From assembly GCA_016841245.1 (NCBI GenBank), contig JAENZN010000029.1, positions 1 to 41,705 of the forward strand: a stretch of 41,705 nt of DNA, written 5' to 3'. Below, piece after piece: positions 11,728 to 31,506 of the stretch (positions within the stretch are counted from its first letter, which is position 1; every line of letters starts with the position of its first letter). The notes beneath the pieces are model-generated. The model made no database searches, had not been told where the DNA came from, and saw only the letters and a program-made list of their open reading frames with translations. Made by a program: the position numbers and the translations under genes. The DNA comes from Syntrophomonas sp. (GTDB lineage: Bacteria > Bacillota > Syntrophomonadia > Syntrophomonadales > Syntrophomonadaceae).

Positions 11728-11729
11728 GT

Positions 11730-15753: not shown

Positions 15754-16511
15754 AGGAAACCTCCTATCAGCGCACCAGACAGAACGCAAAGTTCGCAAAG
15801 CAGGATAAAGAATCCAGAGGTGTCGCCGGTTACGCCACCGAACTGTTTTTTCGACATATGCGAATAACCCCAAAATGAAATTGCCGCAAGGAATGTGACA
15901 CATAGTCCTGACCAAAGATGAAAAAACATCATGCTTCCCGCGCAAAACAGGGCAAGAACATACATAACTGCCATGGCACGACGGTTTTTGGCGTTTCCCG
16001 TAAAGACGCTCAGCATACCTCCGCTGCGGGCATTGGGCAGGGTGAGTGCACCAAGTGTACATAGGCTACGGGAGAGAACAAATCCAATGCCAACCGTCCA
16101 CAAAGCAGTTCTGTTATAGAGAGCCGAGTATAGGCCGAAGTTCAAGAGCAGATACGAAGCGCACCAAATTACCGCAAACGCACCGGCATGTGAATCCTTC
16201 ATGATTTCCAGTTTGCGTTCTCGGGGCTGATGAGAACAGAGTGCATCGGCCGTATCCATAAACCCGTCCATATGAATGCCGCCGGTTTGCAGCAGGGGCA
16301 GTACAACTGCTACTGCTGCAAACAGTGCTGTTTCCACCTCGAATGCCAGGCAAAGCCATTGCCACAGGATAAGCGCTCCTCCGATGAATGTGCCTACTAC
16401 AGGTAAAAAGCAAATGGCAGTGCGCATATTTTCACTTTCCCATTCGACATGAGGTGTCGGCAGTATACTGTATGTACTTATGGCAATCCATAACGGGTTA
16501 AATAAGTTCAT
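15750..16511 (-). CDS. cobS: Adenosylcobinamide-GDP ribazoletransferase (cobalamin synthase)
   Basis: 253 residues, multi-pass membrane protein. It joins adenosylcobinamide-GDP and alpha-ribazole (phosphate) to give adenosylcobalamin (phosphate). The diagnostic metal-binding motif is GGIHMDGFMDTADAL at about 76-90, followed by KLEIMKDSHAGAFAV and, near the C-terminus, FGGVTGDTSGF. The start ATG 16511 follows AAGGAGC. It overlaps cobU by 14 bases and cobC by four. Confidence 0.93.
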   Translation of the reverse strand: MNLFNPLWIAISTYSILPTPHVEWESENMRTAICFLPVVGTFIGGALILWQWLCLAFEVETALFAAVAVVLPLLQTGGIHMDGFMDTADALCSHQPRERKLEIMKDSHAGAFAVIWCASYLLLNFGLYSALYNRTALWTVGIGFVLSRSLCTLGALTLPNARSGGMLSVFTGNAKNRRAMAVMYVLALFCAGSMMFFHLWSGLCVTFLAAISFWGYSHMSKKQFGGVTGDTSGFFILLCELCVLSGALIGGFL

Positions 16512-17013
16512 TTTTTGCTCCTTTTCTGAAAATTGGTGTACCTTCGCACATTTCCACCACTGCGTCTGCCAGAGTGTATAACTGTTGATTAAGGCTTTGA
16601 AGTGCCCGGATATACCGCCGAGTCTCTTCATTGTAAACGCCTGGGTCAAATTCGCTGATAGTTACCGCTATCACGCAGTCGACACGACGGCAGAGCGTTT
16701 TTATATCATCGAACACTTCCGCCTCAGATACGCCCTTATCAAACATTGCGTTCGAAAGCAGGTTAGAAACATCCTCTACCAACACTGCCGCATCTGCCGG
16801 TACGGCTGCATCGCTCACGGTATAAGGTAACTCCAATGTAATGAAACCCAACCCCGCGCGTTGAGCTTTATGCTTTTGTACCCGGGACGCACCCTCCGCA
16901 CCATATGGCAGCATGGTAGCAATATAATAGCGTGTCTTTCCCAACCAAACCGCCAGCTCTTCGGCGTAAGAGCTTTTTCCACTGTTGTTTTTGCCCATTA
17001 TGAGTATCATCAT
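16498..17013 (-). CDS. cobU: Adenosylcobinamide kinase / adenosylcobinamide-phosphate guanylyltransferase
   Basis: 171 residues. It phosphorylates adenosylcobinamide and transfers GMP to it. The P-loop is GKNNSGKSSYAEEL at 7-20. The guanylylation histidine is expected in the RVQKHKAQR block, and ISEFDPGVYNEETRRYI corresponds to the family's 'SEFG.G.VP' loop. The P-loop reads GKNNSGKS where most relatives have G.ARSGKS, a mild deviation. Four bases overlap cobT; two adjacent ATGs (17013 and 17010) could each start it. Confidence 0.88.
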   Translation of the reverse strand: MMILIMGKNNSGKSSYAEELAVWLGKTRYYIATMLPYGAEGASRVQKHKAQRAGLGFITLELPYTVSDAAVPADAAVLVEDVSNLLSNAMFDKGVSEAEVFDDIKTLCRRVDCVIAVTISEFDPGVYNEETRRYIRALQSLNQQLYTLADAVVEMCEGTPIFRKGAKNELI

Positions 17014-18062
17014 GGGTTTCGCCTGTATACGTCCACGGCGATATCGGCAAAGGTCGCGGAACTATGATAGACCGCAGCTGCCATATCCAAAAGGGGGAAC
17101 AGCGCCACTGCTCCCGTACCTTCGCCCAACCTCATGTCCGCATTGAGAATGGGCTTTAAGTCCATGGCCTCGCAAAGCAGCCTGCCTGCCGGTTCCGCAC
17201 TGATATGGGAGGGAATAATATAGTCACGTACATGCGGATTCAACCGGACGGCGCACAGAGCCGCCACGGCAGAGATCACACCATCCATCACCATGGGTAC
17301 GCCGTATGCCGCACCCCCTAAAAACGCTCCTATCATGGCGGCGATGTCCAACCCGCCAAGCTTGCGAAGAATATCCAGCGGGTCGTCGGGATTGGGTTGG
17401 TTTCGTGTGATTGCACGCTCAATGACGGCTCGCTTGCGATCAAGTCCTTCATCTGTCAGACCAGCCCCCCGACCGGTTACCTCAGTGACCGATTTCTCAA
17501 GCAGGACACCTGCCATGGCGCTGGCTGTTGTGGTGTTGCCAATACCGGTTTCCCCTGTGGCAATCAGCCGGAATCCTTCATCTTTCTTTTGCCGCACCAG
17601 CTCGGCACCAAGTTCGATAGCCTTGACTGCCAACTCTCTGCTCATGGCGGCACTATTTGCGATATTCTCTGTGCCATGCGCAAGCTTTCGGTCAATCATA
17701 CCATTTACCGTGTCCCTCATTCCAACGTCTACCGGGAATACCTGTGCACCGCAGGCCTTGGCCATGACACAGACGCAGGATTTGCCAGCGGTCATCATTT
17801 GCGCAATAGCCGTGGTGACGTCGGCATTACTTTGGGCAACCCCCTCAGATACCACGCCATTATCAGCGCAGAACACCAGCACGCACTTTTTTTCGATATT
17901 AATATTCGCATTGGCGTATACCGCTGCAATGCGGGCAAGTAAAGTCTCCATTTGTCCCAAGCTGCCTACGGGCTTGGCAACCATGTCGAAGTGCTCAATG
18001 CAAGCGGTATACGCGGTATTTTCGATGGGACTAATGTGTTTGAGTAAGTCATCCATTTGCAT
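17010..18062 (-). CDS. cobT: Nicotinate-nucleotide--dimethylbenzimidazole phosphoribosyltransferase
   Basis: 350 residues. It activates the lower-ligand base to alpha-ribazole phosphate. Family marks: KPVGSLGQMETL near the N-terminus, VLVFCADNGVVSEGVAQSN, then GETGIGNTTTASAM, TGRGAGLTDEGL and GGLDIAAMIGAFLGGA. The catalytic glutamate sits in the GEGTGAVALFPLLD block near the C-terminus. The start at 18062 (or two codons later) follows AGAAAGG. No genes for making the base (bza or bluB) are visible in the window. It overlaps cbiA by 14 bases. Confidence 0.93.
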   Translation of the reverse strand: MQMDDLLKHISPIENTAYTACIEHFDMVAKPVGSLGQMETLLARIAAVYANANINIEKKCVLVFCADNGVVSEGVAQSNADVTTAIAQMMTAGKSCVCVMAKACGAQVFPVDVGMRDTVNGMIDRKLAHGTENIANSAAMSRELAVKAIELGAELVRQKKDEGFRLIATGETGIGNTTTASAMAGVLLEKSVTEVTGRGAGLTDEGLDRKRAVIERAITRNQPNPDDPLDILRKLGGLDIAAMIGAFLGGAAYGVPMVMDGVISAVAALCAVRLNPHVRDYIIPSHISAEPAGRLLCEAMDLKPILNADMRLGEGTGAVALFPLLDMAAAVYHSSATFADIAVDVYRRNP

Positions 18063-19374
18063 ATTTAATAGCCTTTCTGACAAAATTTTCGGCAAACACG
18101 GGGTTTGCATTTAAATACAGGTGAGGGAATCCGGCATACAGCGTCTGCGTCGTATGTACGCAAGGCCAGTTCCGCTCAGACCGCGGCTTTTCTGCAATAA
18201 AGTCAGCGCCGCAGGAAGTGCTCTCATAATAATGGAATTCGTGTGAGCGTATGCACTCACCGGCTGCGCAAAGAAGGTTGTCCTTTTTTGCGTACAGCGT
18301 GATGTAACCGAAGCGTTTAAGTTTTTCCGTTCTGTATGCATCGGCATGGATGACTCCCGCCATGGAGATGCCATCTAGCGTGTCATGCAAATAAAGGAAT
18401 CCGCCGCACTCGGCGATAGTCGAAATCCCCCCGAGTACCGCCGTACGTATGGCCTCAAGCATTGCAACGTTTCCAGACAGCGCTTCCAGATGCAGTTCAG
18501 GATATCCGCCGCAGAGGTAAAGCCCGCCAATGCCATTGGGTAGACTCGTATCGTTAAGCGGACTAAAAAAAACGAGCTCACATCCAAGCGCAGTCAACAG
18601 TTCAAGGTTTTCCTCGTATAGAAAACAAAAGGCTTCATCCCGAGCAACCGCAATACGTACGGAACCCAGTGGACGGAGGTCCTGTTCAGCAAAGTTCAGC
18701 GTGTCTGCGCCCGCCGCCAGCGCAAGGAGGCTGTCTATGTCGATATGTCTCTCAGCCAGCTCGCCGAGCAGGGCGAGCTTTTCCTCCATGTCAGTAATTT
18801 CTCCCGTCGTTATCAGGCCAAGATGACGGCTTTCGATGTAAGCTTTCTTCTCTTGCGGCAAAAAACCTAGCGGCTTTACTCCGATTTTCTCTGCGATGGA
18901 GCAAAGTCCCTCATAGAGCAAGGGGGATGCGTTATTGAAAATAACCCCTTGAATTCCGTTATCAGTCTTGTAAGTTGAAAAGCCTTTGAGCACCGCTCCG
19001 GCAGAGGCGTACATGCCCTTTGCGTCTACCACCAATACAACAGGGGTCCTGGTTTGCATCGCTACATCATACGCACTGTAAAGTCCTTCAGCGCCAACGC
19101 CGTCGTAATAGCCCATGGCCCCCTCGAGCAGCGAGACGCTGCCTGCGTGCGCCATAATCTGTCGATTTAGCTGCTCTTTGGTGCAGAAGAACGGATCAAG
19201 ATTGTAGGAAGGTACGCCGATGGCGCGGCGGTGGAACATTGGATCAATATAGTCTGGCCCGCATTTGAAAGCTGACGGATTTAGATCTCTGTTCTTCATC
19301 GCCTTAAGCAATGCACAGGTAATTGTCGTTTTACCGCAGCCGGAATGGGTACCTGCAATCAGTATCCTATTCAT
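18049..19374 (-). CDS. cbiA: Cobyrinate a,c-diamide synthase
   Basis: 441 residues. It amidates the a and c side chains of cobyrinate using glutamine and ATP. The N-terminal P-loop is AGTHSGCGKTTITCALL, with the substrate block FKCGPDYIDPMFH shortly after. The C-terminal glutaminase nucleophile lies in TIAECGGFLYL, and the histidine block is RSHEFHYYES. The start ATG 19374 is preceded by GGAGG and overlaps the cbiET stop by eight bases. Confidence 0.94.
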   Translation of the reverse strand: MNRILIAGTHSGCGKTTITCALLKAMKNRDLNPSAFKCGPDYIDPMFHRRAIGVPSYNLDPFFCTKEQLNRQIMAHAGSVSLLEGAMGYYDGVGAEGLYSAYDVAMQTRTPVVLVVDAKGMYASAGAVLKGFSTYKTDNGIQGVIFNNASPLLYEGLCSIAEKIGVKPLGFLPQEKKAYIESRHLGLITTGEITDMEEKLALLGELAERHIDIDSLLALAAGADTLNFAEQDLRPLGSVRIAVARDEAFCFLYEENLELLTALGCELVFFSPLNDTSLPNGIGGLYLCGGYPELHLEALSGNVAMLEAIRTAVLGGISTIAECGGFLYLHDTLDGISMAGVIHADAYRTEKLKRFGYITLYAKKDNLLCAAGECIRSHEFHYYESTSCGADFIAEKPRSERNWPCVHTTQTLYAGFPHLYLNANPVFAENFVRKAIKYANG

Positions 19375-20554
19375 TTTGACCTCCGCTGATTATGAATACA
19401 GGCGAGCCCGATTGCAGCATGTGCCGGTTTCCAATCGGTTTCGCACGCGTCACACCGATTTGTATAATATTGGGGATTATGCCATGCGCTTCGAAGCTTT
19501 GTGTCGCCTCGTGCAGCGTTTCCAGCGTGACAGCATTGATTACGATGTTAGCGCGCGGGTTTCTTTTAATTAGTACATCGAAGATCTCGCCGAGTTTGCC
19601 CGAACTCCCGCCGATAAAAGCTGCATCCATGGGAGGCAAGATAGCGAGTGCTTCAAGCGCCTCGCCCAATACGGGCGTCACATTCCCGATGTGAAAGGCG
19701 TGGCAGTTGGCTGACACAAGTTGAATTGCCTCCTCATTTTTATCCAGTGCATACACCTGTCCCTCGTAAGCGGCAAGCGCCATCTCGACTGTGACTGAGC
19801 CGGTTCCCGCGCCGATATCGCAGCACACCACTTTGGGGGAGATAGCAAGTCTGCTCATTGTCACGGCACGCACCTCAGCCTTTGTCATGGGTACATCTCC
19901 GCGTATGAATTCCTCATCGGGTATACCGAAGCGCACACGACTGTCATGTCCAAAATTCTCAATCAGAAGCACATTCAGGCCGCCTGTTCCGGTCGCACTA
20001 AGGCCGGACACCGGCAATGTCAGAATCCTCTCCTCCGGCAATCCTAAGTTTTCACCTATGTAAGCGTTGAGGCTCCCGAACCCAGCGTGGGTCAATTCAT
20101 CTCCAAGCTCCGCTATATTGCCGCCGGTCAGGGCAAACGTCAGGCTGTTACGGCGAACAATATCTACCAGGTTCGACTTTCGACCGTGGCAACTTACTGC
20201 TGTAACATCCTGCCATGGGCGCATAAGCCGGGCGAGGAAATAGCTCAGCGATGAAACCCCAGGGATCAGCGAAAGCTCACAGCCTTTAAGCACGGAGCAG
20301 AGTCCATCTGCCGCACTATAAAAGCCCGTATCTCCGGATACCAGTACGCAAAAGCTTTCATTCTCGCTCTCATTTAAAAAATGGGCCACCTTCTCCGGCG
20401 CATATTCGGCCAAGGAGGGTTTGCCTAAAGCCCTAAATTGTGCAATCAGCCTTGGTGCTCCGATAAGTATATCTGCCTTTTGCACGGCGCGTAGGCCTTC
20501 TGTTGTTAACGTATCAGCACTCATGCCAAGCCCAACGATTGTAACTTTCTTCAT
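19367..20554 (-). CDS. cbiET: Fused cobalt-precorrin-7 C5-methyltransferase / C15-methyltransferase (decarboxylating)
   Basis: 395 residues, a CbiE-CbiT fusion comparable to CobL of the aerobic pathway. Residues 1-200 form the CbiE tetrapyrrole methylase (VTIVGLGMSADTLT, LVSGDTGFYSAADGL, LIPGVSSLSYF). Residues 210-395 form the CbiT class-I methyltransferase (MTKAEVRAVTMSRLAI, CCDIGAGTGSVTVEMAL, AFIGGSSGKLGEI). Together they methylate C-5 and C-15 and remove the C-12 acetate carboxyl. It overlaps cbiJ and cbiA by a few bases. Confidence 0.93.
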   Translation of the reverse strand: MKKVTIVGLGMSADTLTTEGLRAVQKADILIGAPRLIAQFRALGKPSLAEYAPEKVAHFLNESENESFCVLVSGDTGFYSAADGLCSVLKGCELSLIPGVSSLSYFLARLMRPWQDVTAVSCHGRKSNLVDIVRRNSLTFALTGGNIAELGDELTHAGFGSLNAYIGENLGLPEERILTLPVSGLSATGTGGLNVLLIENFGHDSRVRFGIPDEEFIRGDVPMTKAEVRAVTMSRLAISPKVVCCDIGAGTGSVTVEMALAAYEGQVYALDKNEEAIQLVSANCHAFHIGNVTPVLGEALEALAILPPMDAAFIGGSSGKLGEIFDVLIKRNPRANIVINAVTLETLHEATQSFEAHGIIPNIIQIGVTRAKPIGNRHMLQSGSPVFIISGGQNE

Positions 20555-21303
20555 AAAGCATCCTCCTCAATCAGTTTAAGCATAGCGCTAAGCGTTAGTC
20601 CGGTTTCCTCACTGGGACGCGAGAGCAACGCTACAGTCATGGCACACTCGCGAGCAGCATCAATCTTCTCCAAATACCCGCCCGTCAAGCCTGATTCTTT
20701 TGTGAGCAGAATATCCGCTTTTGTTTCACGGAACATGGCAGCGTTGAGCTCCCTTGAAAAAGGCCCCTGCATACAGATAACGTGCCTGGCAGGAAAACCT
20801 GCCCTAAGGCAGGCCGAAAGCCCCGCCGTATCGGGGAGTATGCGGAGCCATAAGCGCTCCCTATAACCTTCTATCACAGAGAGGGCAGCGGCCTCCTTTG
20901 TGCCAAGCGTAGAAAAAATCGTACCGCGCTGGTCCTTGAGCCAGCTGATGAGTCCGTTCATATGGGGGAAAATTACACAACCTTCGTTATCTAATGTTTC
21001 ACGGAGAAGGCGAAGATGTTTTGTACCGACTTTTTTACAGGCGGTGCTAATATTGTCGCTGACCTGGTTGGCATAGGGATGTGTGGCGTCTATAACCAGG
21101 CGAGGGTTTTCCGTTTTGAATAACTTTTCCATCGCCGCTTTATCAAGCCTTCCCATGTGCACATGTAGAGTTTCCTGTGGAGTCAAAAGCATTTCCCCGT
21201 ATTCCGTTGCGATGCACACAATAGTTTCTATTTGTTTTTTGCTGAGAAGTTCGCAAAGCTCTCTTCCTTCTGTTGTTCCGCCGAACAGGACGATCTCAGT
21301 CAA
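20551..21303 (-). CDS. cbiJ: Cobalt-precorrin-6A reductase
   Basis: 250 residues. It reduces the ring of (cobalt-)precorrin-6A with NAD(P)H. Family marks: IVLFGGTTEGRELCELL at the N-terminus, LVIDATHPYANQVSDNI at about 75, and near the C-terminus LLTKESGLTGGYLEKIDAA. The start is TTG 21303, inside the end of cbiH, with AAGGGGG eight bases upstream. The stop overlaps cbiET in ATGA. Confidence 0.92.
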   Translation of the reverse strand: MTEIVLFGGTTEGRELCELLSKKQIETIVCIATEYGEMLLTPQETLHVHMGRLDKAAMEKLFKTENPRLVIDATHPYANQVSDNISTACKKVGTKHLRLLRETLDNEGCVIFPHMNGLISWLKDQRGTIFSTLGTKEAAALSVIEGYRERLWLRILPDTAGLSACLRAGFPARHVICMQGPFSRELNAAMFRETKADILLTKESGLTGGYLEKIDAARECAMTVALLSRPSEETGLTLSAMLKLIEEDAL

Positions 21304-22027
21304 ATCGATACCCCCTTGGAGTCACCATTTTCCCGTTTACCATTTTGGTTTGAGCATTGCCAATAAAAACAGTGGTAAACATGTCCACCTGCTTCCGGCT
21401 AAGTTGTTCAAGGGGCATTATTTCTGTGTGCTGCCCCTCGCGGCCGATGTTACGCACAAGACCGCAGACGGTTTCAGGTGATCTGTGTCTCAGAAGAATC
21501 TCACAGGCCTTTTGCAGGTAATCAAGCCGTTTTTTACTGGCCGGATTATACAAGGCAATGCAAAAATCCGCAATAGCCGCACAGGAAAGCCTTTTTTCTA
21601 TAACCTCCCACGGCGTCAGCAGATCGGAAAGGCTGATAACGGCAAAATCATGAGTCAACGGAGCACCCAGCACGGCAGACCCTGCAAGGGCAGCCGTCAC
21701 GCCGGGGACTACCTCAATCTCTATAATGGGGAATTCTTCTGAAAGCTCGTAGATAAGCCCCGCCATACCATAGACCCCTGCGTCTCCGCTGCACACGACC
21801 GCAACGGTTTCGCCTTTCGCCGCAAGCGAAAGCGCCGCTCGGCAACGTTCAGTCTCACGGGTCATGGGAGTGTCCAGCGTGCGCTTCTCAGGATAAAGCG
21901 GCGCAACCAATTCAATATATCTGGAGTAACCGACAATTACGTCTGATTGTTCAATAGCATCACGACAGGCAGCCGTCATATTTTTTGTGTCACCCGGTCC
22001 AATTCCCACTACATACAGTTTTTTCAT
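21296..22027 (-). CDS. cbiH: Precorrin-3B / cobalt-factor III C17-methyltransferase
   Basis: 243 residues, tetrapyrrole methylase fold. It methylates C-17 and drives ring contraction. VVGIGPGDTKNMT at the N-terminus, then VIVGYSRYIELV, VCSGDAGVYGMAGL, VVPGVTAALAGSAVLGAPL and IALYNPASKKR are typical of CbiH/CobJ. It has the single-domain length, without the extra Fe-S domain seen in longer CbiH60-type proteins. The start ATG overlaps the cbiG stop as ATGA. Confidence 0.93.
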   Translation of the reverse strand: MKKLYVVGIGPGDTKNMTAACRDAIEQSDVIVGYSRYIELVAPLYPEKRTLDTPMTRETERCRAALSLAAKGETVAVVCSGDAGVYGMAGLIYELSEEFPIIEIEVVPGVTAALAGSAVLGAPLTHDFAVISLSDLLTPWEVIEKRLSCAAIADFCIALYNPASKKRLDYLQKACEILLRHRSPETVCGLVRNIGREGQHTEIMPLEQLSRKQVDMFTTVFIGNAQTKMVNGKMVTPRGYRFD

Positions 22028-23037
22028 GTTTTGTTTTCCTCTTCAAAGCAGATTGTATATGGCGAGATGGCGAGAGCCATAGTCACGCCATTTCCCGCAT
22101 TTTTACCTGTAAGCAACCGCCCGCCTTCTCCGCTGCCAAGAACCGCGCTGCGCTCGCAGACATTGTCCACACCCGTTACCTGTTTTACAAATGCGGATGC
22201 GGTATATATTCCGGGAACCGCCATCAGTTCTTGCGCCGAGAAAGTCTCGTAGGGCAGTGAGTGTATGCGACAAAACTCCAAAATACCCGGCTCCTGAGCT
22301 TTCAAATCAATGCTGCACACACGTACGATGGAGAGTGGATGACAGCTTGATTTCTTTAACATAAGTTCGTAAGCCCGCTCTATACTTTCTGTGGTTACGC
22401 CCTTTTTACAGCCTATGCCCAGTGTGATGACAGGAGGAACCAGCTTGAGTGCTGCCTCACTTCCGCGGGTACGATAGGTGATAAGTATATCGCCGCCTTT
22501 ATCACGGAGCTGGATACCTTCCGGCAATCGACCTACTACCGGAAATGAGCATTTGATTCCAATTTTTACACCAGCCAGCAGACGAGTCGAAATCCATTTT
22601 ATACGCTCGGGATTGGCTATTTTAAGACCGCGCTTTGCTGCCCAGGCGTCGATGGCAAACACGCCGTTTCCATCGGTTGCGGTTGTAACAATGGGCATCG
22701 CTCCAAGAAAGCGAGCGAGGTTGACCGTCAGATCGTTGGCACCGCCGATATGTCCGGATAACAGCGAAACGGCAAAATTTGCAAGTTCATCAATTACAAT
22801 CACGGCTGGATCATCTGTTTTGCCAGCCAAAAATGGGGCTATTGCGCGGACAGCTATGCCGCAGGAGCCGATAAAGATGAGCGCGTCATGCTCAAAATGT
22901 GCTTTCGTCCATTCTGTGAGCTGCCCTTGCCCGCAGCGGGTAAGATCAGACGCAACGCCGTTTTGTACAAAATACGACATGACCCGCTGTCCCAGAGCAT
23001 GACCTCGCTCGCTGAATGCGATCACAGAGGCGTTCAT
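22024..23037 (-). CDS. cbiG: Cobalt-precorrin-5A hydrolase
   Basis: 337 residues. It opens the delta-lactone of cobalt-precorrin-5A and releases acetaldehyde, a step specific to the cobalt-early route. FIGSCGIAVRAIAPFL at about 55 and SLLSGHIGGANDLTVNLA at about 92-110 are the family marks. The C-terminal CbiG domain starts at about 215 with LGIGCKKGVTTESIERA and ends with the SAVLGSGEGGRLL region. It overlaps cbiF and cbiH by four bases each. Confidence 0.93.
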   Translation of the reverse strand: MNASVIAFSERGHALGQRVMSYFVQNGVASDLTRCGQGQLTEWTKAHFEHDALIFIGSCGIAVRAIAPFLAGKTDDPAVIVIDELANFAVSLLSGHIGGANDLTVNLARFLGAMPIVTTATDGNGVFAIDAWAAKRGLKIANPERIKWISTRLLAGVKIGIKCSFPVVGRLPEGIQLRDKGGDILITYRTRGSEAALKLVPPVITLGIGCKKGVTTESIERAYELMLKKSSCHPLSIVRVCSIDLKAQEPGILEFCRIHSLPYETFSAQELMAVPGIYTASAFVKQVTGVDNVCERSAVLGSGEGGRLLTGKNAGNGVTMALAISPYTICFEEENKT

Positions 23038-23792
23038 GCTTTCTCTCCCTGACGAAAGGCGGTGGTAAACGTCGGGTCATACAATTTCGATAGCTCATAA
23101 TCATTCCCCAGAAAGCCGCCCACCAGAATGAGAGCGAGGTTTGAAACACCACTTTGCGCCGAAGTCCTGGCCAGGGTGCCCACCGTGCAGCGAAACACCT
23201 TCTCATCCGGCCAGCTTGCCTTATACACAATAGCAGCAGGCGTATCCTTACTGTATCCGCCCAAAAGCAGCTCGCGCTGCAAATCTTCCGTCATTCCAGC
23301 ACTCAGGAATATCACCATTGTCGCTCCATGCGCTGCGAAAGACGCGATGTTTTCTTGCTCCGGTACAGGCGTTTTTCCCTTTATACGGGTAATAATAACG
23401 CTCTGGCTCACCTGCGGCAGGGTGTATTCAGCTTTCAGCGCTGCCGCTGCGCCGCAAAAGCTGGATACGCCAGGGCATATGTCGTATGGCACGTCCTCCG
23501 CCTCAAGCCGGTCCATCTGTTCGCGGATTGCTCCATAGATCGATGGGTCGCCTGTATGCAATCGCACTGCTGTCTTTCCCTCGCGGTGCACATGGAGCAG
23601 AACGGTAATGACCTCGTCAAGGGTCATTTTGGCGCTATTGCGTATTTCGCAGTCTTTTTTTGCAAAATCTAAAAGCGCCGGATTAACCAGCGACCCGGTA
23701 TACACGATGGCATCGGCTGTTTTGAGAAGCTCGGCGCCGCGCAGGGTGATAAGATCCGGTGCTCCGGGGCCGGCGCCAACAAAATGGATCAT
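23034..23792 (-). CDS. cbiF: Cobalt-precorrin-4 C11-methyltransferase
   Basis: 252 residues. HFVGAGPGAPDLITLRGAEL at the N-terminus, IVYTGSLVNPALL, LHTGDPSIYGAIREQM and CPGVSSFCGAAAAL are typical of CbiF/CobM. I start at ATG 23792 because GGAGG lies eight bases before it; the in-frame ATG at 23807 is itself part of that ribosome site. The ATGA overlap with the cbiD stop fits coupled translation. Confidence 0.93.
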   Translation of the reverse strand: MIHFVGAGPGAPDLITLRGAELLKTADAIVYTGSLVNPALLDFAKKDCEIRNSAKMTLDEVITVLLHVHREGKTAVRLHTGDPSIYGAIREQMDRLEAEDVPYDICPGVSSFCGAAAALKAEYTLPQVSQSVIITRIKGKTPVPEQENIASFAAHGATMVIFLSAGMTEDLQRELLLGGYSKDTPAAIVYKASWPDEKVFRCTVGTLARTSAQSGVSNLALILVGGFLGNDYELSKLYDPTFTTAFRQGEKA

Positions 23793-24928
23793 TCTTTTAT
23801 CCTCCATATATTCATAAGATCATTTGCGTTGTCACTTTTAATAAGTACGTTGTTTAACAGCTGTGTATTGGTAAAACAGAGATAACCGATGGTAACATGC
23901 TCCGGGAGGCGTCTGCCCAGACAGGCATCTATTCGTTTTCCAAGCTGGGCCATAGTCTTTTCAAGCAGACCAGCTTCCCAGATCAGCATTAGAGCTGCGT
24001 CGGTGGTAGCGCTGTCCAAAATGCCCCTGAGCAGAGGAAGCTGAGCCCCTGCCGTGAGCGCACATGCCAGCAGTGTTTCCATCCGCCCGTCCCCGAAGGA
24101 GGAATGGGTGTTGACTGCACCGATGCCCAGCTTTACCAGCTTGCCTATATGCCCAACCAGCAGTATCCGGCTAAAACCCAACTCAACCGCACCGTCGATA
24201 GCGTCTCCGATGAAGTTTGAGCAATTTACATGGCTTTTCATGGAGAGTCCAAGGCTCTTATGCGAAAAGGTCTCGCCATAATTGCCAGGGGTGAGCAGCA
24301 CATCGCACATCCCCGAAGCTTTAAGCTGCCTGAGCTCAAGACGGACTGTGTCCATTATTGCCTGATTACTCATGGGCTCTACAATACCCGTAGTTCCTAT
24401 TACGGAAATTCCACCCTCTATCCCTAATCGAGGGTTAAAAGTGCGTTTTGCCAATTCCTCACCGCCGGGGATGGAAATAACGACGGAAAAACCGCCTTGA
24501 TATCCGTATTTTTCCGCCACCTTAAGCAGCTCCCCGGTAATCATCTCACGTGGTACGCTGTTGATCGCTGCGGCACCCACCGGTTGATCAAGTCCAGGCT
24601 TGGTCACTCGACCTACGCCTTTGCCCCCGTCGATGGTTATCCCATGGGAAATCCTTTTGACCCGAGAGAAGATAAGCGCCCCATCTGTCACATCCGGGTC
24701 ATCGCCCGAATCTTTCCGGATTGCGCAGCTTGCATAATCATCGGCAAGTTGGATATCCAACACATCCAGCGTCAGGACAATGCCCTTCAGCGTGGTGATT
24801 GATACCCTGTCTACCGGAGCGCCGCAAAGAAGCATAATCCCGGCTGCTTTCGCCGCAGCCGCAGCACATGCGCCGGTAGTATAACCGCAGCGCAGTAATT
24901 TTCCTTTTACGTTTCGTATCTGTTCCAT
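23789..24928 (-). CDS. cbiD: Cobalt-precorrin-5B C1-methyltransferase
   Basis: 379 residues and first gene of the operon. It methylates C-1 with S-adenosylmethionine. LRCGYTTGACAAAAAKAA at 12-29 is the family signature; ITIDGGKGVGRVTKPGL, GTTGIVEPMSNQA and INTHSS-like VNTHSSFGDGRMETL follow. The start at ATG 24928 matches the family's usual N-terminus. The ribosome site (GGGGG at 24941-24937) lies in the 3' arm of the terminator hairpin directly upstream, so the riboswitch could act on translation as well as transcription. Confidence 0.94.
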   Translation of the reverse strand: MEQIRNVKGKLLRCGYTTGACAAAAAKAAGIMLLCGAPVDRVSITTLKGIVLTLDVLDIQLADDYASCAIRKDSGDDPDVTDGALIFSRVKRISHGITIDGGKGVGRVTKPGLDQPVGAAAINSVPREMITGELLKVAEKYGYQGGFSVVISIPGGEELAKRTFNPRLGIEGGISVIGTTGIVEPMSNQAIMDTVRLELRQLKASGMCDVLLTPGNYGETFSHKSLGLSMKSHVNCSNFIGDAIDGAVELGFSRILLVGHIGKLVKLGIGAVNTHSSFGDGRMETLLACALTAGAQLPLLRGILDSATTDAALMLIWEAGLLEKTMAQLGKRIDACLGRRLPEHVTIGYLCFTNTQLLNNVLIKSDNANDLMNIWRIKE

Positions 24929-24930
24929 AT

Positions 24931-24960
24931 AAAAAACCCCCGGCGTCGAAGCGCCGAGGG
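24931..24960 (-). terminator. Riboswitch-controlled terminator in front of cbiD
   Basis: On the minus strand CCCTCGGCG (24960-24952), loop CTTCGA, CGCCGGGGG and TTTTTT form a nine-pair stem (one G-U) followed by six T residues. It ends three bases before the cbiD ATG. Its 3' arm contains the only plausible ribosome site of cbiD. Confidence 0.85.
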
Positions 24961-24974
24961 CTAATTTATAAGAG

Positions 24975-25085
24975 AAACGGGTTCTCACTTAAATCATATC
25001 CTTCGGTGCCCGCAAAGGAATATGAATCCTGGTAACCCGGCTTTTACGGTAACGGACTTGCGAGGGAATTTCACCCTGCTTCCCC
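24975..25085 (-). ncRNA. Cobalamin riboswitch, compact (class-II-like) form, for the cbiD operon
   Basis: The minus-strand leader reads GGGGAAGCAGGGTGAAATTC, then CCTCGCAAGTCCGTTACCGT, then AAAAGCCGGGTTACCAGGAT. These correspond to the B12-riboswitch P4/P5 region and the B12-box strand. The long P7-P11 side arm found in standard cobalamin riboswitches is absent; only about four bases separate the ACCGT and GCCGG blocks. A following hairpin (CATATTCCTT...AAGGATATG) presents CGGGC in its loop, which can pair with GTCCG of the L5 region (one G-U) as the expected kissing interaction. This suggests the smaller class often linked to methyl- or aquocobalamin binding; ligand preference is inferred. 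Confidence 0.8.
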
Positions 25086-25101
25086 AGTTTTATTTAAAAT
25101 C

Positions 25102-25161
25102 AGTATGAATGAAAACCACATGCTTGTCAAATTGACAATATGATTTTTCCAATGATATACT
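25102..25161. promoter_or_regulatory. Back-to-back divergent promoters for the B12 synthesis and import operons
   Basis: Minus strand: -35 TTGACA (25130-25125), 17-base spacer, -10 CATACT (25107-25102). Plus strand: -35 TTGACA (25132-25137), 18-base spacer, -10 TATACT (25156-25161). The two -35 boxes are separated by one base and form the palindrome TTGTCAAATTGACAA. Each transcript begins shortly before its own cobalamin riboswitch. Confidence 0.75.
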
Positions 25162-25177
25162 TACTTAAAATTGAATA

Positions 25178-25375
25178 TCGGAATCAGGTCATGGAAGTTG
25201 GGTGTGAATCCCACGCAAGGCCGTTGCTGTAATTCACTGATACTTTGGCAAAAGTCACTGGGATAAATTCCGGGAAGGCGCCAGGGTTGCGTTCTTAAGT
25301 GGACGCTGGTGATAAGCCAGAATACTTGCCTGTTTCCTGCCGCACGATTTGTGCGGTGCATACAGCCCTGCGGAC
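25178..25375 (+). ncRNA. Cobalamin riboswitch, full-size form, for the cbiK-import operon
   Basis: The plus-strand leader contains GAAGTTGGGTGTGAATCCCA, then CGCAAGGCCGTTGCTGTAA, the side-arm elements AAAGTCACTGGG and GGGAAGGCGCCAGGGT, and the B12 box GATAAGCCAGAATACTTGCC. Order and spacing match a standard (class-I, adenosylcobalamin-type) cobalamin riboswitch including the P7-P11 arm. The CCGCAC/GTGCGG hairpin after the B12 box completes the regulatory domain. The terminator at 25447 follows. Confidence 0.9.
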
Positions 25376-25446
25376 TACCGGGGTCATGGATGAGAATGAG
25401 GTATACTTGCCCTTATGAAAGTGTATCTCGGTTTCGTATGTAAACG

Positions 25447-25477
25447 AACGTCTGCAAGCAATGCGGACGTTTTTTTG
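25447..25477 (+). terminator. Riboswitch-controlled terminator in front of cbiK
   Basis: AACGTCTGCA, a short loop (about five bases), TGCGGACGTT and a T-run give a ten-pair stem with one G-U. It sits 100 bases before the cbiK start. An upstream TTTCGT/ACGAA pairing overlapping the stem base could be the competing structure. Confidence 0.85.
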
Positions 25478-25575: not shown

Positions 25576-26484
25576 ATGAAAAAAAGGTCTAAGGCAATGG
25601 CAACATTGACACTGGCTCTGTCGCTGCTCCTAATGACAGCGACGGGCTGCTCAACGAATCAGGCGAATCCGTCCAGTGGAAATTCTGCGACTGACGCACA
25701 GAAAAAGGTTTTATTAGTGATCAGCTTCGGCACCAGCTACAACGACAATCGTGATTTGTCCATAGGCGGAATCGAAAAAGCGCTGCAGACAGCTTATCCC
25801 GACTACGAGGTTCGGCGTGCATTCACCAGCCAGATTATCATTGACAAACTGCAAGAGCGCGACAAACTCGAGATTGATAATGTAAAAGAAGCAATGGATC
25901 GTCTGGTAGCCGATGACATTAAAGACGTCGTGATTCAGCCTACGCATGTGATGAATGGGTATGAATATGACGATATCGTTGCTGAAGTTACGCCCTACCA
26001 GGATAAATTTGACAGTTTCAAAATCGGTAAGAACTTGCTGAGTTCCGATGCCGACTATCAAGAGGTCGCCAAAATTATAACTGAAGAAACGAAAAGCTGC
26101 GATGTTGATGGAACGGCAATCGTCTTTATGGGTCATGGTACCGAGGCGCCGTCGAACGCTACATACGCCAAACTACAAGAGATTCTGACCGCTGAGGGTC
26201 ACAACCGCTACTTTGTCGGGACAGTCGAGGCTACGCCCTCTTTAGAAGACGTTATGGAACTGGTTAAGGCCTCCGGAGCGACGAAAGTCGTGCTGGAACC
26301 GCTCATGATTGTCGCTGGCGATCACGCCAACAACGATATGGCTGGTGATGAAGAAGGTTCCTGGAAGATAGAATTTGAAAAGGAAGGTTTCCAGGTTGAA
26401 ACAATCATAAAAGGTCTTGGACAGATGCCGGGTATTCAAAATCTTATTGTCAAACATGCGGGCGAAACAATGGCTGAGAAATAA
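25576..26484 (+). CDS. cbiK: Sirohydrochlorin cobaltochelatase with lipoprotein signal (extracytoplasmic CbiK)
   Basis: 302 residues. It inserts Co(II) into sirohydrochlorin (or a related tetrapyrrole). The N-terminus is an export signal with lipobox TATGC, placing a lipidated Cys at residue 25, so the enzyme should sit outside the membrane. The mature part is a type-II chelatase: LLVISFGTSYNDNR, then the metal-site histidine His124 in IQPTHVMNGYEYDD and His187 in VFMGHGTE, and later PLMIVAGDHANNDMAGD. Exported CbiK forms are known in sulfate reducers. It leads the operon below the full-size riboswitch, together with lipoproteins, an ABC importer and cbiL. The outside location of a biosynthetic first step is puzzling. 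Confidence 0.9.
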   Translation: MKKRSKAMATLTLALSLLLMTATGCSTNQANPSSGNSATDAQKKVLLVISFGTSYNDNRDLSIGGIEKALQTAYPDYEVRRAFTSQIIIDKLQERDKLEIDNVKEAMDRLVADDIKDVVIQPTHVMNGYEYDDIVAEVTPYQDKFDSFKIGKNLLSSDADYQEVAKIITEETKSCDVDGTAIVFMGHGTEAPSNATYAKLQEILTAEGHNRYFVGTVEATPSLEDVMELVKASGATKVVLEPLMIVAGDHANNDMAGDEEGSWKIEFEKEGFQVETIIKGLGQMPGIQNLIVKHAGETMAEK

Positions 26485-26590
26485 AGAAAAATATGGACTT
26501 CCAGCTGGCTGGTTTTCAGTCAGCCGGAAGAACCGTACCATGTGTTTCGTTGACTCAGACAAACAAGACTTTATTTCAGGAGAAAATAAA

Positions 26591-27466
26591 ATGAAGAGGA
26601 TACTAATTTTTTTATTGGCAGCCGTACTTGCCTGTGCCATATTCACAGGCTGCGATGCTAAAACTCCGTCTGCCGAAAGTCTGGAACCTTCGCCAAGTTT
26701 AAGCAGCGAAAATATGCCATCTGATGCAAGCGGCGAACAAGCCGCCAGTGAGAGCGAAGAACTGAAACCCATTTATGGAAACCAAATTAAAGATGGGACG
26801 TATAAGATAGAGGTTTCGTCCAGTTCATCCATGTTTCGGATCATTGATGCACAGCTGACCGCAGCGGGAGGTGAGATGTGGGCAGTCCTGACATTGAGCG
26901 GTGACGGCTACGAAAAGTTGTACATGGGTACCGGGGAGCAGGCTCTTGCCGATTCAGACGATAAGTGCATTTATTTTGTGGAAAATGCTGAGGGCAAGTA
27001 CACTTATACAGTGCCGGTTGCAGCACTTAACCAGGACACCGACTGCGCCGCGTGGAGCATCCGAAAGCAAACATGGTATGACCGGGTTTTGGTATTTCAG
27101 TCTTCGTCAATACCCCAGGACGCAATTTCCGCCGATTCTGCGGCACAGCTTCCTGCGGATGGGCAGTATACCATTGAAGTAACCCTGTCGGGTGGTTCGG
27201 GTAGAGCAACGGTGGAGTCGCCCGCGAAGCTGACCGTAGCAAACGGCGCAGCAATAGCAACCATTATATGGAGCAGTCCGTATTACGATTATATGCTGTT
27301 GGACGGAAATAAATATAATCCGGTTAATACCGAGGGGAATTCCACCTTCGAAATCCCAGTTGGGTTGGACACGGATATGCCGGTAAGCGCCGATACCATT
27401 GCCATGAGTACGCCACATGAAATTGATTATACGTTTCGTTTTGATTCCGGTACATTGAAAAAATGA
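26591..27466 (+). CDS. Lipoprotein with two tandem beta-domains, probable tetrapyrrole/corrinoid-binding surface protein
   Basis: 291 residues. The lipoprotein signal ends FTGC (Cys21), followed by a Ser/Glu/Pro-rich linker (about 22-60). Two related domains follow: one starting IKDGTYKIEVSSSSS (about 65-175), the other LPADGQYTIEVTLSGGSGRA (about 188-288). Both share '.DG.Y.IEV', a central aromatic block (GDGYEKLYMGTG; SSPYYDYMLLDG) and a strand ending in hydrophobics. The layout recalls NEAT-type heme-binding domains. The gene lies between cbiK and the BtuF-like binding protein and overlaps the latter by four bases, so a role in capturing a corrinoid or other tetrapyrrole is a reasonable inference. 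The start is ATG 26591, after AGGAG. Confidence 0.65.
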   Translation: MKRILIFLLAAVLACAIFTGCDAKTPSAESLEPSPSLSSENMPSDASGEQAASESEELKPIYGNQIKDGTYKIEVSSSSSMFRIIDAQLTAAGGEMWAVLTLSGDGYEKLYMGTGEQALADSDDKCIYFVENAEGKYTYTVPVAALNQDTDCAAWSIRKQTWYDRVLVFQSSSIPQDAISADSAAQLPADGQYTIEVTLSGGSGRATVESPAKLTVANGAAIATIIWSSPYYDYMLLDGNKYNPVNTEGNSTFEIPVGLDTDMPVSADTIAMSTPHEIDYTFRFDSGTLKK

Positions 27467-28614
27467 GAAAAAAAAGATATATAATATTGGGAATCAGCTT
27501 GATATTAACATTTGTACTGCTTGCGGGGTGTTCAGGCAATACAATTGATACCCAGAAAAAGGGGCTTGGGAACGGCTGGCAGATAGAAAGCAGCATGGAT
27601 CTCAAGTATGCAAAAAACTTCAGCGTGGATTATTATAAGGGCGGTTATTCCCTGATTACTATAGTCGATAAAAGCAGATATCTGGTTGTTCCGAAGGGAC
27701 ATGAGATCCCGGAGGGTATAAACGAGGATATTACGGTTTTGCGACAGCCAATCAAAAACATCTACCTGGTCGCTACTTCGGCGATGTGCCTTTTCGACGA
27801 TCTTGATTCTCTGGGTAGTATCCGGCTGTCCGGTACCAAGGCAAAAGACTGGTATATACAAAACGCAAGGACCAAAATGCAGGCTGGCGACATCCTATAT
27901 GCGGGAAAATACATGACGCCGGACTATGAACTTATCATGACCAGCAAATGCAGTTTAGCTATTGAGTCCACCATGATAAACCATACTCCGGAAGTGAAGG
28001 AAAAATTAGAATATGTAGGTATACCGGTACTTACAGACCAGTCGAGCTACGAATCTCACCCGCTTGGGCGTACCGAGTGGATTAAACTTTATGGGGTTCT
28101 TACTGGCAAGGAAGATACTGCGGAACGACTGTTCAATGAACAAATTGCCTATATGGATGAAGTCGTCAGTCAGAAAAACACCGGTAAAACAGTGGCGTAT
28201 TTCTATATCAACTCTTCAGGATATGCAGTTGCCAGAAAATCGGGCGACTACGTGACCAAAATGATTGAGCTGGCCGGTGGCAGCTATATTTTTGAAAACC
28301 TCGGCGACCCTGCTAAAGCAACCAGCACAGTAAATCTTGAAATGGAAAAGTTTTACGCGACAGCCAAGGAAGCGGACTTTATCATATATAACAGCACCAT
28401 CGGCGGAGAAGTTTCCTCCATGGCAGAACTGTTAAGTAAAAACAGCTTGTTAGAGGACTTCAAAGCTGTACAAAACGGCAATGTTTGGTGTACGGACAAG
28501 AATCTTTTTCAGGAAACGACCCAGCTTGGACTGATGATTTCGGATATCCATAGGATGCTTGCGGAAAGCGATGGTAACCTGACGAAACTGAATTTTATGT
28601 ACAAGCTGCAATAA
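27463..28614 (+). CDS. ABC-transporter substrate-binding lipoprotein, BtuF-like
   Basis: 383 residues. The signal peptide ends in lipobox LLAGC (Cys23). The mature part is a helical-backbone binding protein of the BtuF/FhuD type: YLVVPKGHEIPEGI, LRQPIKNIYLVATSAMCLF, the helix-bearing DYELIMTSKCSLAIEST block, and HTPEVKEKLEYVGIPVLTD. In context (cobalamin riboswitch, CbiK, CbiL) the substrate is probably a corrinoid or cobalt tetrapyrrole rather than a siderophore, but ligand specificity cannot be read from the sequence. The start ATG overlaps the preceding stop (ATGA). Confidence 0.82.
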   Translation: MRKKRYIILGISLILTFVLLAGCSGNTIDTQKKGLGNGWQIESSMDLKYAKNFSVDYYKGGYSLITIVDKSRYLVVPKGHEIPEGINEDITVLRQPIKNIYLVATSAMCLFDDLDSLGSIRLSGTKAKDWYIQNARTKMQAGDILYAGKYMTPDYELIMTSKCSLAIESTMINHTPEVKEKLEYVGIPVLTDQSSYESHPLGRTEWIKLYGVLTGKEDTAERLFNEQIAYMDEVVSQKNTGKTVAYFYINSSGYAVARKSGDYVTKMIELAGGSYIFENLGDPAKATSTVNLEMEKFYATAKEADFIIYNSTIGGEVSSMAELLSKNSLLEDFKAVQNGNVWCTDKNLFQETTQLGLMISDIHRMLAESDGNLTKLNFMYKLQ

Positions 28615-28627
28615 TATCGACATTTAG

Positions 28628-29683
28628 GTGCGTATAAGTAAGGACGATGAAATAATATTGACAGGCGAAAATACGAAGAGGAATTTGAGATACGGTATTA
28701 TGCTGGCAATCCTTCTTATCCTCTTCATAATCTTAATTATTTTAAATATTAATTTAGGCAGTGTGTCCGTACGGATAGGGGACATCGGTAAAATATTGTT
28801 CGATCAAGGGGCAAACATCACCGAACATGATATTATCTGGAAGATCCGCCTTCCCAGAACGATGGCTGCGGTTATTCTCGGCGGCGCTCTGGCGTTGTCG
28901 GGTTTTTTGTTGCAGACATATTTCAACAATCCCATTGCAGGACCCTATGTGCTGGGAATTTCCTCCGGTTCCAAACTGGTGGTAGCTATTGTTATGGTCA
29001 TGGCACTCAGTCGGCACTATGCAGTTAGCTCCGCGGCTCTAATTACGGCGGCTTTCGTCGGAGCTATGATTACCATGGGATTTGTTCTCCTGGTGGCCCG
29101 AACGGTTCAGCGGTCATCAATGCTGATTGTCAGCGGTGTTATGATTGGCTATATTTGCTCAGCCATCACCGACTTCATTATTACCTTTGCCGACGACGCC
29201 AGCATCGTGAACCTGCACAACTGGTCAAACGGCAGTTTTTCGGGCACTTCATGGGTGGATGTCAAAGTCATGGCGGTGGTGACGCTGCTTACTTCGGCAA
29301 TTGTGTTTCTGATGTCCAAGCCCATAGGTGCTTATCAACTGGGCGAGAGTTATGCGCAGAATATGGGCGTGAATATCAGGCTGTTTCGCATCATTTTGGT
29401 ATCGCTTTCAAGTATATTATGTGCCTGTGTTATCGCCTTTGCCGGGCCAATATCTTTCGTGGGGATAGCTGTGCCGCATCTGATCAAAGCGTTATTACGA
29501 ACCTCCAAGCCGCTAATTGTTATTCCCGCATGTTTTTTGGGAGGCGCAATTTTTTGCTTAGGCTGTGACTTGATTGCAAGAACCGTTTTCGCTCCGCTGG
29601 AATTGAGTATCAGTTCCGTAACCGCGGTGTTCGGAGCGCCTGTTGTTATAGGTATTATGTTAAGAAAGAGAGAGCGTGGCTGA
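28628..29683 (+). CDS. FecCD-type ABC permease, BtuC-like
   Basis: 351 residues with about nine or ten membrane helices. Family marks: IRLPRTMAAVILGGALALSG at about 75, NNPIAGPYVLGISSGSKL, then the late block ISFVGIAVPHLIKALLRTS and the end GAPVVIGIMLRK. These are typical of the iron-siderophore/cobalamin permease family. The start is GTG 28628, 14 bases after the binding-protein gene; no strong ribosome site is visible. It works with the adjacent ATPase and binding protein. Confidence 0.88.
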   Translation: MRISKDDEIILTGENTKRNLRYGIMLAILLILFIILIILNINLGSVSVRIGDIGKILFDQGANITEHDIIWKIRLPRTMAAVILGGALALSGFLLQTYFNNPIAGPYVLGISSGSKLVVAIVMVMALSRHYAVSSAALITAAFVGAMITMGFVLLVARTVQRSSMLIVSGVMIGYICSAITDFIITFADDASIVNLHNWSNGSFSGTSWVDVKVMAVVTLLTSAIVFLMSKPIGAYQLGESYAQNMGVNIRLFRIILVSLSSILCACVIAFAGPISFVGIAVPHLIKALLRTSKPLIVIPACFLGGAIFCLGCDLIARTVFAPLELSISSVTAVFGAPVVIGIMLRKRERG

Positions 29684-29685
29684 GT

Positions 29686-30798
29686 ATGGAATACTTTTTT
29701 CGAACCAGCAAGCTGGCGGTTGGCTATAACGGGAAGCCCCTTATTAAAGACATTGAAATCCGTCTGAACAAAGGGCAAATCCTGACCTTAATCGGACCAA
29801 ACGGCTCGGGCAAGTCGACCATTCTGAAAAGCATCACCAAATATTTAAAAAGTATTTACGGTACGGTTTATATTGACAACCGCTCTATTGCTGACATGAG
29901 CAGTAAAGATATGTCCTATCAGGTATCCGTTGTTTTAACCGAAAGGATTAAAACAGAGCTTATGACCTGCGAGGATGTCGTAGCCACAGGTCGCTATCCT
30001 TATACAGGCCTTTTGGGCATTCTCTCGAGTCAAGATAAGCTTCAGGTCCGTCAAGCGATGGAGATGGTGAATGCATGGGACATTAGGGAAAGAGATTTCA
30101 CCCAAATCAGCGACGGGCAAAAGCAGAGAATCCTGCTGGCCAGGGCTATATGCCAGGAACCGCAGATTATCGTTTTGGATGAGCCTACATCCTTTTTAGA
30201 CGTCCATTATAAACTCGAGCTGCTCAGCATTCTTAGAGCCATGTCGGAAGAACGTGGGATAACAGTCATCATGTCGCTTCATGAGCTGGAAATGGCGCAG
30301 AAAGTATCTGATCTGGTAATGTGTGTGAAGGGCGAATACATTACACACTGGGGCAGCCCTCAGCAAATATTCCGGAAAGATTTGATAGGAGAGCTTTATG
30401 AATTATCAAACGGCAGCTATAATCCACTCTTCGGCAGCTTTGAGATGGAAAGACCGAAAGGTGAACCAAAAGTCTTTGTGATTGCGGGAGGCGGTACTGG
30501 GATTACAGAGTTCCGGACACTACAGAAAAAGAGGATTCCGTTTGTGACGGGCGTCCTGCATGAAAACGATATCGACTATCAGCTTGCTAACGATCTGGCC
30601 AGCGAAGTGTTTTGGGTAAAAAGCTTTGAGCGAATCGGGGAAGATATATATCGTCAGGCATTGAAGAAAATGGAATCTTGCGATACGGTAATCAACTGCT
30701 TGCAGTGTTATGGCGAAATGAATGAAAAAAATAAAAAGTTATATGAAGAAGCCGTATTGATGGGGCTGAAAATCGTTACAAATGCTGATGTACTATAA
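29686..30798 (+). CDS. ABC-transporter ATPase, BtuD/FecE-like, with C-terminal Rossmann-like extension
   Basis: 370 residues. Residues 1-255 are the ATPase: Walker A GPNGSGKST at 37-45, signature ISDGQKQRILLARAI (SDGQ instead of SGGQ), Walker B IIVLDEP and the switch histidine in MSLHELE. Residues from about 262 form an extra domain of some 110 residues beginning KVFVIAGGGTGITEFRTL, with ENDIDYQLANDLASEVFWV and a Cys-containing stretch VINCLQCYGEMNEK. This part looks like a nucleotide- or cofactor-binding alpha/beta fold not needed for transport as such. Similar extensions occur in some ABC ATPases of anaerobes, but I know of no assigned function. Confidence 0.85.
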   Translation: MEYFFRTSKLAVGYNGKPLIKDIEIRLNKGQILTLIGPNGSGKSTILKSITKYLKSIYGTVYIDNRSIADMSSKDMSYQVSVVLTERIKTELMTCEDVVATGRYPYTGLLGILSSQDKLQVRQAMEMVNAWDIRERDFTQISDGQKQRILLARAICQEPQIIVLDEPTSFLDVHYKLELLSILRAMSEERGITVIMSLHELEMAQKVSDLVMCVKGEYITHWGSPQQIFRKDLIGELYELSNGSYNPLFGSFEMERPKGEPKVFVIAGGGTGITEFRTLQKKRIPFVTGVLHENDIDYQLANDLASEVFWVKSFERIGEDIYRQALKKMESCDTVINCLQCYGEMNEKNKKLYEEAVLMGLKIVTNADVL

Positions 30799-30819
30799 TA
30801 AAACCACGGAGGACTAATG

Positions 30820-31506
30820 ATGAAACGAGGGAAATTATATGGTGTGAGCGTGGGACCGGGAGATCCCTCACTGATGACGCTCAAGGCGGTGTCCTGCATT
30901 CAACAATGTGAAGTATTGGCAGTGCCGCGTACATCCGATGGAAACTCGCTTGCCCTGAAGATAGCAAAGGGTACTGTGGACACCTCGGAAAAGCATATCG
31001 AATATCTAAATCTCCTCATGACCCGTGATTTGGCTGAGCTGGACAAAAGTTATCAGGCAGCGGCGGAGCGTATTGAGGCCCATTTGGAAGCAGGCAGAGA
31101 TGTGGCTGTACTGAGTCTCGGCGACGCCTCACTGTTCAGCTCGTATTCCTATATTTGCCGCATTCTCATCGAGCGCGGCTGGGATGCTGAAACCATCCCC
31201 GGCGTGACAAGCTTTTCCGCCTGCGCAGCATTGCTCAACCGCAGTCTTACTGAAAAGAATATGCCGCTGCACATTTTTCCTGCATCCATGCCGGATCTCT
31301 CATCCGCCCTTTCTCTGCCGGGAGGCAAAGTGGTAATGAAATCCGGCCGTGCCTTGTCGGAGGTTAAGCGTCTCTTGTCTGAGCAGGGACTTGCGGAGCG
31401 TTCAGCGCTCGTAACCGACTGCGGTCTTCCAACCCAACGTGCCTTCTCCGATATCGATGAGGCAGGGGACGAGAGCTATTTTACCACCATCCTCATCGCC
31501 CCGTAA
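30820..31506 (+). CDS. cbiL: Precorrin-2 / cobalt-factor II C20-methyltransferase
   Basis: 228 residues. It methylates C-20 of the product of CbiK. GKLYGVSVGPGDPSLMTLKA at the N-terminus, VAVLSLGDASLFSSYSY and IPGVTSFSACAALLNRSL are typical of CbiL/CobI. The start at ATG 30820 has GGAGG seven bases upstream; an ATG directly before it (30817) is too close. It lies in the import operon, away from the other ring enzymes, so the two pathway steps encoded here (CbiK, CbiL) follow the full-size riboswitch. Confidence 0.93.
   Translation: MKRGKLYGVSVGPGDPSLMTLKAVSCIQQCEVLAVPRTSDGNSLALKIAKGTVDTSEKHIEYLNLLMTRDLAELDKSYQAAAERIEAHLEAGRDVAVLSLGDASLFSSYSYICRILIERGWDAETIPGVTSFSACAALLNRSLTEKNMPLHIFPASMPDLSSALSLPGGKVVMKSGRALSEVKRLLSEQGLAERSALVTDCGLPTQRAFSDIDEAGDESYFTTILIAP

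Follow-up and report, generated by a model that had tools for sequence, protein, structure and literature searches.

Divergent cobalamin riboswitches of two architectures between the operons of an anaerobic B12 gene cassette in Syntrophomonas sp.

The two operons and the promoters between them

The stretch of DNA considered here, referred to as the window, comprises 41,705 nucleotides from Syntrophomonas sp. (assembly GCA_016841245.1, contig JAENZN010000029.1), and an Rfam scan of its full length returned exactly two matches, both to cobalamin riboswitches. Both are of known kinds but differ in architecture, and they lie between two divergent operons that jointly hold one B12 pathway. The minus operon was annotated to begin with cbiD (23789–24928) and to continue from cbiF to cbiC (11101–23807), with the gene order cbiD-F-G-H-J-ET-A-cobT-U-S-C-cbiB-cobD-cbiP-cbiC. 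The plus operon opens with a CbiK-family cobaltochelatase that carries a lipoprotein signal (25576–26484), followed by a second lipoprotein, a BtuF-, BtuC- and BtuD-like corrinoid ABC transporter (27463–30798) and CbiL, the cobalt-factor II C20-methyltransferase (30817–31506).

An earlier note on this DNA had suggested that synthesis and import could respond separately. This division did not hold, as a whole-genome search found one CbiK and one CbiL over the cut-off, both encoded on the supposed import transcript, so that corrin synthesis requires both transcripts and saturating either switch should slow it. Nor could the plus operon be maintained as an import unit, since in G341, a genome of another family, btuFCD has been lost there and CbiK and CbiL are retained. 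In G341 a 90-bp trace of btuC (L085:2668–2757) remains where the lipoprotein gene meets cbiL, which points to a deletion of btuFCD from that operon, and at locus L044 CbiK and CbiL alone are found behind the plus switch.

Two features of the plus-operon proteins deserve mention in their own right. CbiK, of which the genome has no other copy, carries a lipoprotein-like signal (LLMTATGC) and would therefore sit on the outer side of the membrane, separated from the pathway in the cytoplasm that it should serve. The second lipoprotein (26417–27466, with a start likely near 26588) found no match in Pfam and a weak, PplA-like one in NCBIfam, and it is conserved at loci L042, L043, L046 and L047 and in G341.

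The same note had placed two −35 boxes back to back and firing in opposite directions, and this was confirmed by the promoter scan. The cbiD-operon promoter has a −35 box TTGACA (25125–25130, minus strand), which recurs in four other loci, and a −10 box CATACT (25102–25107) after a 17-nt spacer, while the cbiK-operon promoter has TTGACA (25132–25137, plus strand) and TATACT (25156–25161) with an 18-nt spacer, leaving the single base 25131 between the two −35 boxes. Both promoters are present in the window (genome G000) and in four other loci with nearly unchanged spacers; in G048 the minus −35 box reads TTGACT. The gap between the −35 boxes, on the other hand, measures 1, 7, 20, 49 and 1395 bp across the five loci, so the one-base spacing is incidental, and mutual exclusion of polymerases was rejected as a conserved feature. 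The palindrome TTGTCAAATTGACAA was likewise rejected as an operator, being the two −35 boxes themselves and showing no conservation. The widest arrangement belongs to locus L047 of genome G058, where 1.4 kb (L047:8068–9464) separates the divergent promoters.

Two aptamers of different architecture

The two RNAs had been expected to belong to different classes, and the Rfam scan that the note had suggested as a check agrees, with each RNA passing the gathering cut-off of a different model. The minus-strand aptamer (25023–25102) matches AdoCbl-II (RF01689) at 41.4 bits (cut-off 36.5, E 1.1e-6), with the P3-P4-P5-P6 four-way junction, and the plus-strand aptamer (25169–25347) matches Cobalamin (RF00174) at 65.5 bits (cut-off 31.5, E 4.1e-14). 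Only the latter has the P7-P11 arm.

The minus RNA proved as compact and class-II-like as described. Its P6 is a bare 3-bp hairpin with a 7-nt loop in all five loci, hence the P7-P11 arm is missing. Our own model, R1, places the aptamer at 24995–25089 on the minus strand and includes the P13 hairpin (24995–25024), whose loop L13 (CGGGC, 25008–25012) is predicted to kiss L5 (GUCCG, 25053–25057) through five contiguous pairs in four of the five loci. The J6/3 strand is GUUA (25033–25036), or GUUU in L047, where the Rfam consensus has AGcG, and J3/4 is GGAAG in the window and GAAAG in L047 and in L080 (the G341 locus), the GGAA being common to the window and G048. The −10 box lies 13–17 nt ahead of P3 in the five loci and the predicted transcript starts at about 25095, some 6–10 nt ahead of P3, so the 5' strand of P1 would be untranscribed; by the promoter prediction, the first helix of the RF01689 model overlaps the −10 box. 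The minus RNA is thus class II in architecture, with P1 apparently missing, and not a typical RF01689 member. The aligned minus sequences are too similar for covariation, the one double change being equalled in 136 of 500 shuffles.

RF01689, the AdoCbl variant, owes its definition to marine metagenomes (PMC2864571). With that family, including the class IIa aptamer env8, the minus RNA shares the P3–P6 junction without a P7-P11 arm, the L4 and L6 loops and the L5-L13 kissing, but it differs in the predicted loss of P1, in its J6/3 and in its origin, an anaerobic member of the Syntrophomonadales rather than marine samples or cyanobacteria. In addition, env8 acts on translation, whereas the minus RNA ends in an intrinsic terminator. 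Class IIb (eut-type) aptamers and the Mycobacterium tuberculosis ppe2 switch are similarly compact, without the P8–P12 extension; the GGAA of J3/4 in the window and G048 recalls class IIb, and ppe2 also lacks UCU in J6/3 and shares its cell with a class-I switch. Unlike class IIb, the minus RNA has no UCU in J6/3, and membership by way of RF01482, a third B12 riboswitch family, was rejected, as that model had zero matches across the genome. Neither class IIb nor ppe2 is known to stand divergent to a class-I switch, and ppe2 acts on translation.

The plus RNA had been described as a full class-I riboswitch, which was right as to the B12 box, the P7-P11 arm and the RF00174 match but not quite as to completeness, because P2 is missing. 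It shares with class I the four-way junction, P13/L13 and a terminator, and has its L5 (GGCCG) at 25219–25223. It departs from class I in its P3 (AUG/CUU) and in its J6/3, where AAUA (25321–25324, within AGCCAGAAUACUUGCC) replaces the GAGA or GAAA of the consensus (AGCCAGGAGACCUGCC) in all eight relatives, and aptamers of this type score 56–70 bits, compared with about 87–145 bits for most others of the family.

Leaders, terminators and a proposed switching scheme

Both leaders end in an intrinsic terminator identified by the terminator scan. In the minus leader (terminator at 24935–24962), the 3' strand of P13 and its flank (24990–25009) are predicted to form an antiterminator with a downstream arm (24951–24968) that overlaps the terminator 5' arm. 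This pairing amounts to −13 to −15 kcal/mol in four loci, energies that were matched by 3–15 of 2000 shuffles, and it includes a paired GAUUUA/UAAAUY flank. When the leader is cut before the terminator 3' arm, the P13 antiterminator is the minimum-energy fold in the window and in L043 (the locus of genome G025). The 3' strand of P6 together with J6/3 pairs with the terminator arm equally well in the window and L080; an antiterminator made of P6 and J6/3 alone was nevertheless set aside, despite equal energy in some loci, as the P13 version is the one that folds in the window and L043. The terminator region of the G048 minus leader differs from that of the other loci. Nothing ahead of the cbiD ATG resembles a Shine-Dalgarno sequence except a GGGGG in the minus terminator, at a distance of 8 nt, and the terminator stem may therefore also hide the ribosome site of cbiD.

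In the plus leader (terminator at 25446–25472), L13 (UGCGGAC, 25369–25375), the loop of P13 (25365–25383), can pair either with L5 or with GUCUGCA (25450–25456) in the terminator 5' arm. The latter pairing, the predicted antiterminator, extends over 6–8 contiguous pairs at seven loci; in L046 its two sides have both changed. It was seen in the RNAfold structure of leaders without a complete terminator from the window, L042, L046 and L047. The predicted kissing of L13 with L5 (GRCCG) is weak, at three contiguous pairs and one across a mismatch. Because L13 is shared between the antiterminator and the L5 kissing, the sign of the ligand response is most likely OFF.

A single scheme could account for both leaders, and it builds on elements that can be read in the sequences themselves, namely the aptamers, promoters, terminators, conservation and gene split. 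From the back-to-back promoters, each transcript would carry one cobalamin riboswitch acting as a transcriptional OFF switch. A corrinoid bound at the four-way junction would let L5 kiss L13 and keep P13 closed, the terminator would form and the operon would be turned off; with no ligand, part of P13/L13 would pair with the terminator 5' arm and the operon would be read. The minus switch, a class-II-type aptamer without P1, would control cbiD and 14 further B12 genes, and the plus switch, a class-I-type aptamer without P2 and with an altered J6/3, would control cbiK, the lipoprotein gene, btuFCD and cbiL. We infer ligand binding and the OFF sign for both switches, and consider it probable that the locus consists of two corrinoid-OFF transcription terminators, each with P13/L13 shared by kissing loop and antiterminator, in the regulatory centre of a mobile cassette of anaerobic B12 genes.

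The same competition has been established by mutation in the metE riboswitch of P. megaterium (PMC10653944), where the kissing loop holds P13, the antiterminator pairs the terminator 5' arm with the 3' side of P13, and the sign is OFF; the plus leader here differs in using L13 itself to pair with the terminator arm. Dehalobacter restrictus, as presented in the available sections of PMC4285132, similarly has several terminator-linked switches on corrinoid operons in one anaerobic Bacillota cell, but with one switch per operon and the operons at separate places, and those sections hold no description of different architectures back to back. The locus is real, conserved and unusual in its details, yet built from known kinds. 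It cuts one B12 pathway into two halves, each under its own switch architecture and each perhaps differently sensed, and the minus RNA would be a natural class-II aptamer that seems, by prediction, to work without P1.

Conservation, origin and ligand preference

When 63 genomes of the order were searched with Rfam, RF01689 exceeded its cut-off in three, the window's own genome, G048 and G058, and in all three a class-I-type match lies nearby on the other strand, at a distance of 1.4 kb in G058. The minus copy of G025 was missed by the Rfam search and scored 106 bits with R1, a model built with that copy included. When R1 was run on 398 genomes from the phylum, a single further one was gained, G341 from the other family, at 120.7 bits and with a plus switch again divergent, so that the pair is found in four other genomes (G048, G025, G058 and G341) around the same B12 genes. 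The J6/3 signature of the plus switch, AAGNCAGAATACTTGCC, occurs in four of the 63 genomes, exactly those with a minus element, and a reversed control pattern gave no matches in the 63. The plus type can also occur alone, as its relatives at L042, L044 and L046 stand ahead of cbiK with no minus element adjoining. Weak RF01689 matches in G007, G017, G018 and G064 and a weak R1 match in G380 were rejected; those in G007, G017 and G018 overlap RF00174 matches, and L078 and L083, checked among the weak matches, read as canonical class I.

Among cassette holders the CbiD proteins are 58–78% identical, with 78% to the copy from the other family (G341), whereas full-length CbiDs elsewhere in the order share 40–47% with those of the cassette, and that of a congener 43%. 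Horizontal transfer of the cassette in its entirety is the best explanation for such a pattern, and the riboswitch pair and its B12 genes form a conserved and apparently mobile unit. The G025 copy (L043:4600–4694, minus strand) keeps L5, P6, P13, terminator and promoter intact, but the P3 and P4 pairs of its minus aptamer are broken, either from ongoing decay or from an assembly error.

The minus aptamer could be a duplicate of the plus one, made within the cassette and since stripped of the P7-P11 arm, and the two would then be paralogues with much the same ligand. Both RNAs lack P2, and both have an unusual P5/L5, CAAGnCCGUU (with one change, CAAGUGCGUU, in the G048 minus copy); 13 canonical class-I cores, taken from the same family and from other retrieved loci, all lack it. 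The minus core of the window has a mean identity of 74% to plus cores and 67% to canonical ones, although this difference is small and the core only 40 bases long, and R1 matches the plus RNA weakly (22 bits, E 0.015). The minus cores are, however, also 59–68% matched to the RF01689 consensus. A duplication of this kind is possible, the sequences giving a faint hint of it, and we hold the paralogue origin to be conceivable, with the odds somewhat against it.

The J6/3 strand of env8 reads AAUG in its crystal structure. Measured against this class IIa aptamer, the minus RNA, with GGAAG in J3/4 and GUUA in J6/3 in the window, does not reproduce the pocket of A20 and A68, the A68 position being occupied by a U. 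PMC11838749 assigns the upper-ligand pocket of the MeCbl-selective env8 to G19, A20 and A68. Of the class IIb pocket, given in PMC11260477 as J3/4 GGAA with J6/3 UCU, the GGAA occurs in the window and G048, and UCU is absent from all five loci. Neither the minus nor the plus pocket, as judged by sequence, thus fits a class of known preference; class and pocket disagree, and a preference therefore cannot be assigned.

The earlier note had outlined, as a possibility, a model in which the minus RNA senses methyl- or aquocobalamin and the plus RNA adenosylcobalamin, the operons answering separately to two cofactor forms. The two RNAs do belong to different Rfam families, and in M. tuberculosis the class-I metE switch responds to AdoCbl while the IIb-like ppe2 switch is promiscuous, so that two classes differ in isoform preference within one cell (PMC11260477). 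In PMC11260477 and PMC11477304, selectivity for methyl- and hydroxocobalamin is attributed to class IIa alone, and AdoCbl is preferred by class I and also by class IIb. A class-II label consequently does not imply methyl- or aquocobalamin, and the GGAA of the minus J3/4 is IIb-like. Moreover, the minus J6/3 (GUUA or GUUU) has its U where PMC11838749 places A68 of env8. It is the plus J6/3, AAUA, that resembles the AAUG of env8, and the assignment could even be reversed; nor does the gene split divide synthesis from import. The model is accordingly unlikely in our estimation.

It is equally doubtful that one locus reads two upper-ligand forms, the class-II arm one and the altered class-I arm the other, with the gate mobile as a cassette. 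If this were so, the division of the corrin pathway over two transcripts would make the locus an OR-type repression gate, with synthesis only when both forms are scarce. A different ligand preference of the two switches is possible, and our guess leans towards overlapping corrinoid pools with differing sensitivity, strictly separate forms being the less favoured. The locus offers, within 550 bases, a natural side-by-side test of whether the peripheral arm (class) or the J6/3 pocket sets the cobalamin form; here class and pocket disagree. A reading of the minus element as a degenerating leftover, with the plus switch alone functional, is very improbable: the predicted loss of P1, the broken helices of L043 and an Rfam score only 5 bits over the cut-off would suit it, but the window, G058 and G341, across families, preserve P3, P4, P6, L5, L13, P13, terminator and promoter, and the core is intact in G048 as well.

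A third cobalamin riboswitch of the same genome, a canonical class I scoring 95.8 bits, lies at G000:C34:157274–157476 (L040:5275–5477). The gene upstream of it encodes an adenosyltransferase of the CobA/CobO/BtuR type, and downstream are genes for an SLH/DUF4430 protein, a DUF4430 protein, a CbiQ-like permease and a double ABC ATPase, likely an ECF-type corrinoid import system.
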